Shown in pieces: positions 24,548 to 26,753 of a DNA stretch of 64,000 bases (the stretch's first letter is position 1; each line of letters begins with the position of its first letter). A program made the translations under genes and the position numbers. The stretch spans positions 958,001-1,022,000 of the forward strand of contig NZ_CP118734.1 in NCBI RefSeq assembly GCF_032594935.1, given 5' to 3'. The notes under the pieces were generated by a model, which was given only the letters and a program-made list of their open reading frames with translations, did no database searches and had not been told where the DNA came from. The stretch is from Streptococcus sp. 29892. GTDB lineage: Bacteria > Bacillota > Bacilli > Lactobacillales > Streptococcaceae.

Positions 24548-25861
24548 ATGAGTATGTTTTTAGATACAGCCAAGATTACGGTCAAGGCTGGTAAGGGTGG
24601 CGATGGCATGGTAGCCTTCCGCCGTGAAAAATATGTACCCAATGGCGGTCCTTGGGGTGGCGACGGTGGTCGTGGTGGTAATGTGGTCTTTGTCGTGGAT
24701 GAGGGCTTGCGCACCTTGATGGACTTCCGTTACAACCGTCGTTTTAAGGCTGACGATGGCGAAAAAGGCATGACAAAGGGAATGCATGGGCGTGGCGCAG
24801 AAGATATGTTGGTCCGTGTCCCTCAGGGAACTACTGTGCGCGATGCGGAAACTGGCAAGGTTATTACTGACTTGGTGGAGCATGGCCAAGAATTTATCAT
24901 TGCCCATGGCGGACGTGGTGGTCGTGGTAATATCCGTTTTGCGACACCTAAAAATCCTGCACCAGAAATTTCTGAAAATGGGGAACCAGGTGAAGAACGC
25001 CAATTGGAATTAGAATTGAAAGTCCTTGCTGATGTTGGGCTTGTTGGTTTTCCATCGGTTGGTAAATCAACCCTGCTCAGCGTGATTACGGCAGCCAAGC
25101 CAAAAATTGGTGCCTATCATTTTACTACTATTGTTCCAAACTTGGGAATGGTTCGGACTAAATCTGGTGAATCCTTTGCAGTTGCAGACTTACCAGGTTT
25201 GATTGAAGGGGCTAGTCAAGGTGTCGGTCTAGGTACCCAATTCCTTCGCCATATCGAGCGGACACGTGTTATTTTGCATGTCTTGGATATGTCAGCAAGT
25301 GAAGGTCGTGATCCTTATGAGGACTATGTAGCTATCAACAATGAATTGGAAACCTACAATCTTCGACTCATGGAACGCCCACAGATTATTGTCGCCAATA
25401 AGATGGACATGCCGGAAGCAGCTGACAATCTGAAAGAATTTAAGAAAAAATTGGCAGCAAACTATGATGAATTTGACGAACTGCCACAGATTTTCCCAAT
25501 TTCAGGGATTGCTCACCAAGGTTTGGAAAATCTCTTGGAGGCAACAGCAGAATTGCTAGAGAAAACACCAGAATTCTTGCTTTATGATGAATCAGATTTC
25601 CAAGAAGAAGAGGCTTACTACGGCTTCAACCCAGATGAACCAGAATTTGATATCAGCCGTTCAGATGATGCCAGCTGGATTCTATCTGGTGATAAGCTAG
25701 AAAAACTCTTTACTATGACCAACTTTGACCGTGACGAATCAGTCATGAAATTTGCCCGCCAGTTGCGAGGAATGGGTGTCGATGAAGCCCTCCGCGCGCG
25801 CGGAGCAAAAGACGGAGACACCGTCCGCATCGGCAAGTTTGAATTCGAGTTTGTTGATTAA
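24548..25861 (+). CDS. obgE: Obg GTPase
   Basis: 437 aa, essential ribosome-associated GTPase. Glycine-rich Obg domain (about 1-158; [19 protein letters not shown]), G domain with GFPSVGKST (G1), DLPGLIEGA (G3) and NKMD (G4), and a C-terminal OCT domain (about 355-436). An alternative start at 24554 would remove two residues. Role is 50S maturation and stringent-response coupling. The gene is followed by an unusual non-coding repeat array. Confidence 0.96.
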
Positions 25862-25869
25862 CGTAGCAG

Positions 25870-26109
25870 TTTGACTGCAAGTTAACTTGCAAGTCAAACT
25901 ACGCCAAGTCCTAGGGGACCTTAGCTAGCTACCTTACTAACTTCCCCCAAATGGTAGTATCGACCATTTGGGTTCCGTTTCGTAACTTTGGATCACATCT
26001 AAGTCCTAAAGGACTTGATGTAGTACGGTAGCCGCTATGGCGGTCTACTTACCAACCTTACTAATTCCGTACAGGCAGTAACATCGACTGCCTGTACTCC
26101 ATGTCGTAA
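25870..26109. repeat. Hairpin-module repeat, unit 1
   Basis: 240-bp non-coding unit about 96% identical to unit 2 (26219-26459). It holds two related half-modules. Each has an AAGTCC..GGACTT-like hairpin, then ACCTTACTAA(C/T)T, then a long hairpin whose arms differ but whose 7-nt loop is conserved, then TCC(G/A)TNTCGTAACTT. Long hairpins: CCCAAATGGT, loop AGTATCG, ACCATTTGGG (25946-25972); and GTACAGGCAGT, loop AACATCG, ACTGCCTGTAC (26069-26097). The unit opens with a near-palindrome around GCAAGTTAACTTGC. Confidence 0.85.
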
Positions 26110-26218
26110 CTTGTCCAGTGGAGTGAAACAGTTTGGGGAACTGTTTCAGCTGGTCGCCTTGAAATATGAAAGCGACCACAGAAGCTCGAGCTTAAAAATT
26201 CGAAAGCGAGTTAAGCAT
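26110..26218. repeat. Spacer between hairpin units, also hairpin-rich
   Basis: 109 bp. GAAACAGTT, loop TGGGG, AACTGTTTC (26125-26147) is a perfect 9-bp hairpin, and GTCGC/GCGAC form another. No open frame of note. The CTGGGGAAC core reappears after unit 2 (near 26490), suggesting it belongs to the same repeated structure. Confidence 0.6.
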
Positions 26219-26459
26219 TTTGACTGCAAGTTAACTTGCTAGTCAAACTACGCCAAGTCCTAGGGGACCTTGGCTAGCTACCTTACTAACTTCACCCAAA
26301 TGGTAGTATCGACCATTTGGGTTCCGTTTCGTAACTTTGGGATCACATCTAAGTCCTAAAGGACTTGATGTAGTACGATAGCCGCTATGGCGGACTACCT
26401 ACCAACCTTATTAATTCCGTATAGGCAGTAACATCGACTGCCTGTACTCCATGTCGTAA
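26219..26459. repeat. Hairpin-module repeat, unit 2
   Basis: Second copy of the 240-bp unit, offset 349-350 bp, with about 8 substitutions and one 1-bp insertion. In the second long hairpin a C-to-T change turns a C-G pair into a T-G pair, tolerated in RNA. The first long hairpin (26295-26321) is unchanged. After the unit (26460-26570) decayed short hairpins such as AGTCT/AGACT and CTCG/CGAG continue. Confidence 0.85.
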
Positions 26460-26588
26460 TACATCCGATAAGTTGGCACGGTTTTAACTGGGGAACTCGA
26501 AGGCGAGGTAGTCTTGGAATAGACTGTTTCAGTTGCTTTAAACTTGGACGAGTAGAAAATAAGTAATGATAGAAATTTGGAGGTGTCT

Positions 26589-26753
26589 ATGGGTGATAAA
26601 CCGATATCCTTCAAGGATAAGGATGGAAATTTCGTTTCTGCAGCAGATGTTTGGAATGCTGAGAAATTGGAAGAACTTTTTAACACGCTCAATCCCAATC
26701 GTAAATTGCGCTTGGAAAGAGAGCGTATAGCCAAAGAGAAAGAAAATGAGTAA
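26589..26753 (+). CDS. Conserved streptococcal miniprotein, 54 aa
   Basis: Begins MGDKPISFKDKDGNFVSAAD and is highly charged, with no membrane segment; the C-terminal half looks helical. GGAGG lies 5 nt upstream. From memory, similar small proteins follow obg in other streptococci, so it is likely a genuine gene whose normal neighbour is obgE, the repeat array having been inserted between them. Function unknown. Confidence 0.75.
   Translation: MGDKPISFKDKDGNFVSAADVWNAEKLEELFNTLNPNRKLRLERERIAKEKENE

Follow-up and report, generated by a model that had tools for sequence, protein, structure and literature searches.

Integron attC sites combine a paired foot, an unpaired spacer and a variable terminal stem and occur in arrays, and REP elements are linked to a Y1 transposase (RAYT). 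REPs are palindromes of 20–40 bp present in high copy (PMC3733652). Some E. coli REPs lie near stop codons (Liang et al. 2015 and Newbury et al. 1987, as cited in PMC12306157); those less than 16 nt from the stop codon can stall ribosomes, which leads to mRNA cleavage, the nrdAB transcript being named in this connection, and REPs in 3' regions lengthen mRNA life (PMC12306157). In streptococci, BOX, RUP and SPRITE are described as nearly confined to S. pneumoniae, S. mitis and S. suis; in S. suis the repeats of BOX type comprise RepSU1 and boxA to boxF (boxE 115 nt, boxF 133 nt), and 36 pneumococcal BOX copies provide a gene's stop codon (PMC3049150).

The array considered here lies in a 64,000-nt stretch of Streptococcus sp. 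29892, referred to as the window, where four modules of ~125 nt occupy positions 25862-26459 in the spacer between obgE and a miniprotein gene (Table 1). A sequence-only reading had described two repeated units, each built of two half-modules. Both units are present: 25865-25991 and 26214-26340 are 97% identical at a spacing of 349, and 25987-26109 and 26337-26459 are 95% identical at a spacing of 350. The arms of the half-modules (CCCAAATGGT, GTACAGGCAGT) differ yet are self-complementary, loops (AGTATCG and AACATCG) and flanks agree with what that reading gave, and its C-G to T-G change between the units is found as GTACAGG to GTATAGG. The open reading frames of at least 40 aa that touch the array (43 aa, 44 aa and a 107-aa frame lying antisense across the next gene) are not gene-like. 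The analysis adds two further hairpins and a helix, P1, to each half-module, places the start of the array at the obgE stop codon, assigns the spacer between the units to a second family, and reveals that the repeat is spread across the genus, is anchored at stop codons in sense orientation and pairs with the stop codon.

Table 1. Features of the obgE-miniprotein region (window positions)
Feature	Position	Strand	Basis or remark
obgE	24548..25861	+	ORF; stop codon TAA 25859-25861; ObgE family by NCBIfam for relative L169
Module 1 (stop-codon module)	25862..25986	+	R1 match 25887-25989
P1 5' strand: stop codon TAA, C, GTAGC	25859..25867	+	sequence, fold (GTAGC:GCTAC), register test
P1 3' strand: GCTAC, C, TTA	25928..25936	+	sequence, fold, register test
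hp0 of module 1, arms AGTTTGACT / AGTCAAACT	25868..25900	+	sequence, fold
Hairpin A of module 1, loop TAGG, one-base bulge	25904..25924	+	sequence, covariation
Hairpin B of module 1, foot TTAC/GTAA	25934..25985	+	sequence, covariation, fold
Hairpin B stem of module 1	25946-25955/25963-25972	+	loop AGTATCG 25956-25962
Module 2	25987..26110	+	R1 match 26011-26113
Hairpin B stem of module 2	26069-26079/26087-26097	+	loop AACATCG 26080-26086
Class Y module in spacer separating the two units	26121..26182	+	R2 match
Module 3	26214..26335	+	R1 match 26236-26338; P1 GTAGC strand not retained
Module 4	26336..26459	+	R1 match 26361-26463
Downstream miniprotein gene	26589..26753	+	ORF

The module, named R1 after its covariance model, is like REP in being a non-coding hairpin repeat found within ~15 nt of stop codons in operons, and the parallel extends to one gene pair: the E. 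coli nrdAB transcript has a REP, and the nrdE-nrdF gap has R1 here. Unlike REP, the module is ~125 nt long instead of a 20–40 bp palindrome, carries three hairpins, reaches up to about a dozen counted copies, includes the stop codon in a helix and shows no tie to the Y1 transposase family PF01797. With BOX it shares a modular build and RNA-like folds in streptococci. The sequence-only reading had not recognised the repeat as BOX, RUP or SPRITE; its range, 252 of 284 genomes, does set it apart from the distribution described in PMC3049150, a separation by description and not by sequence, and the BOX description in the available part of that source has no P1. R1 may overlap with boxE or boxF of S. 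suis, whose lengths are similar, and class Y may belong to the BOX types known from S. suis, both being compared by description only. Integron attC sites have the same paired foot, unpaired spacer, variable terminal stem and arrangement in arrays, whereas the R1 array is without cassette genes, has a conserved apical loop and sits at stop codons of housekeeping genes. The array is not a CRISPR: in place of constant repeats with unique spacers there are two 250-bp blocks, nearly identical to each other, whose stems are palindromic and variable. By analogy, we infer that R1 acts in the manner of a stop-proximal REP. It is akin to BOX as a modular streptococcal repeat, but fits neither REP size nor BOX range.

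Architecture and covariation of the module

Each module consists of a stop-proximal hairpin (hp0), hairpin A, hairpin B and P1, the helix in which the bases after the stop codon are joined to the linker preceding TTACTAA. Hairpin A has a TATG or TAGG loop and a one-base bulge. Hairpin B has a variable stem of 10-11 bp, a 7-nt loop mostly with an ATCG end, the foot TTAC/GTAA and conserved internal loops. The predicted RNA folding energies of modules 1 and 2 are 4.6 and 5.9 sd below those of dinucleotide shuffles, and in the fold of module 1 GTAGC, one base past the obgE stop codon, pairs with GCTAC ahead of TTACTAA.

The covariance model R1 was based on 30 modules and matches all four modules of the window. 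In this alignment 95.5% of the cells are paired, against a mean of 77.1 after shuffling and 24-42% in slid controls, and 18 of the 25 pairs are changed on both sides; RNAalifold added pair 58-96. In hairpin B all 11 stem pairs are changed on both sides, with the loops largely constant. This bears out the earlier claim of a structured modular repeat between obgE and its normally adjacent miniprotein gene; in other genomes the stem changes are compensatory.

The kind of pair substitution is less in keeping with RNA. G·T and A·C combinations are equally frequent in unique stems (32 vs. 31 in hairpin A, 23 vs. 28 in hairpin B), which argues against plain RNA selection, where G·U should be favoured; the L21 leader, taken as a calibrator, has too few variable pairs. 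One-pair differences between nearest stems comprise 45 double, 18 G·T, 20 A·C and 18 other changes in hairpin A, and 10, 9, 12 and 10, respectively, in hairpin B. The common one-step double changes, 16 of 45 being transversion types in hairpin A, suggest arm-to-arm copying in DNA. Some modules are chimeric, hp0 and hairpin A being exchanged over one and the same hairpin B. Such exchange, like the tandem arrays, fits the recombination by module that had been proposed from the sequence. In one obgE array (L047, ~1720-2060) half-modules stand in inverted order, as if the arms had been flipped by recombination in the hairpin.

Stop codons and the P1 helix

Position relative to genes was assessed in hand-chosen loci (L164-L203 from the genus matches, L228-L287 from the order matches, and three host-genome loci). 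With respect to the longest upstream open reading frame, 94 of 104 arrays are in sense orientation, 7 are antisense and 3 have no such frame. Position 1 of the R1 model lies 18-28 nt past the stop codon in 81 of the 104, which means that hp0 starts 0-8 nt after the stop. Among the remaining 23 are arrays preceded by a different hairpin element, which is then the one that starts at the stop codon (e.g., L187, L190, L232), copies within dispersed repeats (L165, L174, L185, L202) and doubtful reading-frame calls. The upstream genes, clustered and named by NCBIfam from one member each, are prfC (21 loci, 20 of which fall within 18-28 nt), groEL (12), argS (12), lactose PTS (10), nrdE (7), grpE (4, of which 3), obgE (3), pdhA (3), ftsX (3), a sugar ABC permease (3, of which 0), pheS (2), dnaK (2, of which 1), pyrF (2) and singles. 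The 81 arrays are not independent, because one site, such as those behind groEL and prfC, can recur across many genomes. Same-strand genes follow the arrays at many loci, and the nrdE-nrdF gap also carries arrays.

In a register test, the stop codon and the six bases after it were set against the six linker bases plus TTA, with swapped linkers as control. At positions +2 to +6, 58 unique first modules form 3.66 of 5 Watson-Crick pairs vs. 1.58 (sd 0.13) for swapped linkers. Setting aside lacE, grpE and pyrF, whose first modules are off register, raises this to 3.98 vs. 1.67 (sd 0.14), and the 13 unique obgE first modules alone give 3.77 vs. 1.62 (sd 0.34). Inner modules (44 unique) stay near the control in strict register, with 1.34 pairs vs. 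1.13 (sd 0.12). When the register is left free, a perfect 5-bp P1 is found in 49% of first modules (81 unique; control 4%) and, as a weak signal, in 16% of inner modules (119 unique; control 3%). P1 duplex energy is -6.8 vs. -4.0 kcal/mol, the own linker beating the cross-gene mean in 56 of 63 cases.

The stop codon itself is accompanied by the matching triplet, TAA by TTA in 37 of 51 rows and TGA by TCA in 13 of 15 (Fisher p 6e-5, without correction for relatedness), with TCA in 14 of the 51 TAA rows; the stop-codon bases are paired in nearly every row, but this proves little, since they hardly vary except for the second. The strand at +2 to +6 behind obgE reads GTAGC, GTTGG, TTCGC, CTGCC or ACCTT depending on the species, each with its complement. 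Pairing fails at three obgE loci (L076, L100, L169), and at both pyrF loci the linker is complementary to the final codons together with the first stop-codon base. These base-pairing comparisons show that, in first modules, P1 fits the end of the gene upstream.

Distribution and other elements at the same gene ends

A search of the genus with strict filters, scoring up to 14 candidates per genome, matched R1 in 252 of 284 Streptococcus genomes; in the order, 42 of 295 genomes and 1 of 74 genera were matched, all of them Streptococcus. In the host genome, 10 matches have E of 1 or less (one of them 0.4); they fall at four sites, namely obgE, nrdE-nrdF, pheS and a point 112 nt past carA. An impression of a single-locus oddity, gained from BLAST of the host genome, was overturned by these covariance-model matches. 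Plasmid records gave no match to the array query, and phage records gave one short match (query 259-314) within the class Y spacer. In Rfam, the gathering search of the window returned three tRNAs and the L21 leader only, and at E up to 5 the segment 25800-26620 gave four matches, all to microRNA models at E 2.2-3.7 and none credible. A literature search of titles and abstract openings found no description of the R1 element.

Among 80 named obgE-miniprotein loci, R1 is in the spacer at 31 (spacers of 187-1038 nt); of the other 49, 31 have spacers measuring 9-61 nt and 18 have spacers in the range 68-805 nt. This patchy presence indicates that the element is not essential there. The miniprotein 3' of obgE (54 aa) is conserved in streptococci; no NCBIfam family matched the product, and records with a 100% identical miniprotein bear the name S. 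suis.

Class Y (model R2) is a second hairpin family, unrelated to R1, with a variable stem and a constant loop; its stem often takes in the stop codon of the preceding gene. The host genome yields 50 matches at E of 0.01 or less, and at least one match occurs in 137 of 147 genomes, where weak matches may be due to chance. The start of the model precedes the end of a stop codon by 2-5 bases at 6 of 30 host loci and 12 of 28 genus loci; at a start of -5, the stop codon is the foot of the class Y stem. Other copies stand behind another hairpin or lack such a relation to a stop codon. Genes with class Y at or just past the stop include prfC, ilvC (L007, by NCBIfam), era, guaA, rpoD, glnA, eno, nadE, dapA and obgE, of which prfC and obgE alone are shared with R1, in other species. 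Besides the window, class Y was read at L004-L008. A third long hairpin element, class X (GATACAAAG..., GATACAAAGnCCGTTAAGCGAGC...), starts no more than a few bases from the stop codon of obgE or of a sugar ABC permease (L065, L074, L078-L080, L088, L124, L187, L190). Across species, three different elements thus stand directly behind obgE stop codons.

Possible function and competing explanations

The array, which starts at the obgE stop codon and is complementary to it, may form a three-way junction in mRNA and act at translation termination in the manner of a stop-proximal REP. In our estimate, this proposal has about an even chance of being correct. Sense orientation, the start at the stop codon and the gene-matched P1 point to mRNA. 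The predicted fold is a three-way junction of P1, hp0 and hairpin A, followed by hairpin B. As long as no ribosome is present, P1 would be closed across the stop codon plus the six bases that follow it, so that a terminating ribosome must open it. Termination or release would be slowed, the drift of ribosomes into the next cistron prevented and 3'-5' exonucleases hindered, and neighbouring cistrons would thereby be expressed separately. Inner modules are likely duplicates with turnover by recombination, and the constant loops likely bind a putative factor common to streptococci. A broader version is put forward more tentatively, as somewhat short of an even bet: a genus-wide class of mRNA elements that seal stop codons, in which P1 is rewritten for each gene and R1 and class Y alternate at the same stops, making the end of translation controllable.

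If the mRNA proposal is true, an RNA element that Rfam lacks sits, in most streptococcal species, at the termination sites of core genes, including those for release factor 3, GroEL, ribonucleotide reductase, aminoacyl-tRNA synthetases and pyruvate dehydrogenase. Bacterial control of termination and cistron separation via stop-codon pairing would then become directly testable. P1, the ATCG loop and the TATG loop provide sequence handles in the search for a binding factor, and obgE offers, at a single site, a natural series of compensatory P1 variants across species.

The sequence-only reading had left RNA and single-stranded DNA side by side. Position and P1 favour mRNA; the equal G·T and A·C counts do not. 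These counts, the frequent one-step double changes with their transversion types and the half-module inversions of L047 would suit an element working as DNA, whose single-stranded hairpins or cruciforms are read by a recombination protein or a DNA-binding protein and whose stems are kept perfect by template switching. Such an element leaves the start at the stop codon, the sense orientation and the match of P1 to the gene end unexplained, and we consider it improbable. Transcription terminators or attenuators between cistrons, to which the strong hairpins and one terminator-like call at 25946-25972 could be ascribed, are the least probable reading, hardly to be expected at all: the tail of that call is TTCCGTTTCG, with no T-run, arrays sit between nrdE and nrdF and ahead of same-strand genes at many loci, and neither P1 nor constant loops would be required of a terminator.

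A non-autonomous mobile hairpin repeat, a parasite similar to BOX or REP, seems to us unlikely, though a more serious candidate than the preceding two. It would insert at gene ends, perhaps guided by target pairing, and persist where harm is least, P1 being a trace of target choice. The tandem arrays, the chimeric modules and the dispersed copies away from gene ends make mobile behaviour visible and are what such a repeat would leave, as are the patchy occurrence at obgE and the different elements behind obgE stops; BOX, RUP and SPRITE were judged parasitic (PMC3049150). Insertion of this kind is harder to reconcile with 94 of 104 arrays lying in sense, with a P1 far better kept in first than in inner modules, and with obgE P1 sequences that differ among species and retain pairing. 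A Y1 transposase as the driver was rejected: PF01797 is present in 178 of 284 genomes and does not track the modules, which occur without it in G001, G003, G004, G006, G007, G008 and G010, the reverse being seen in G013, G015 and G017.

In the dispersed copies of L165, L174, L185 and L202, the module lies inside dispersed repeats away from gene ends, retains its TAACGTAGC start and has a flank like TTGATATTTTC; the genomes concerned (G231, G043, G052 and G199) may be holders of mobile copies of the module.
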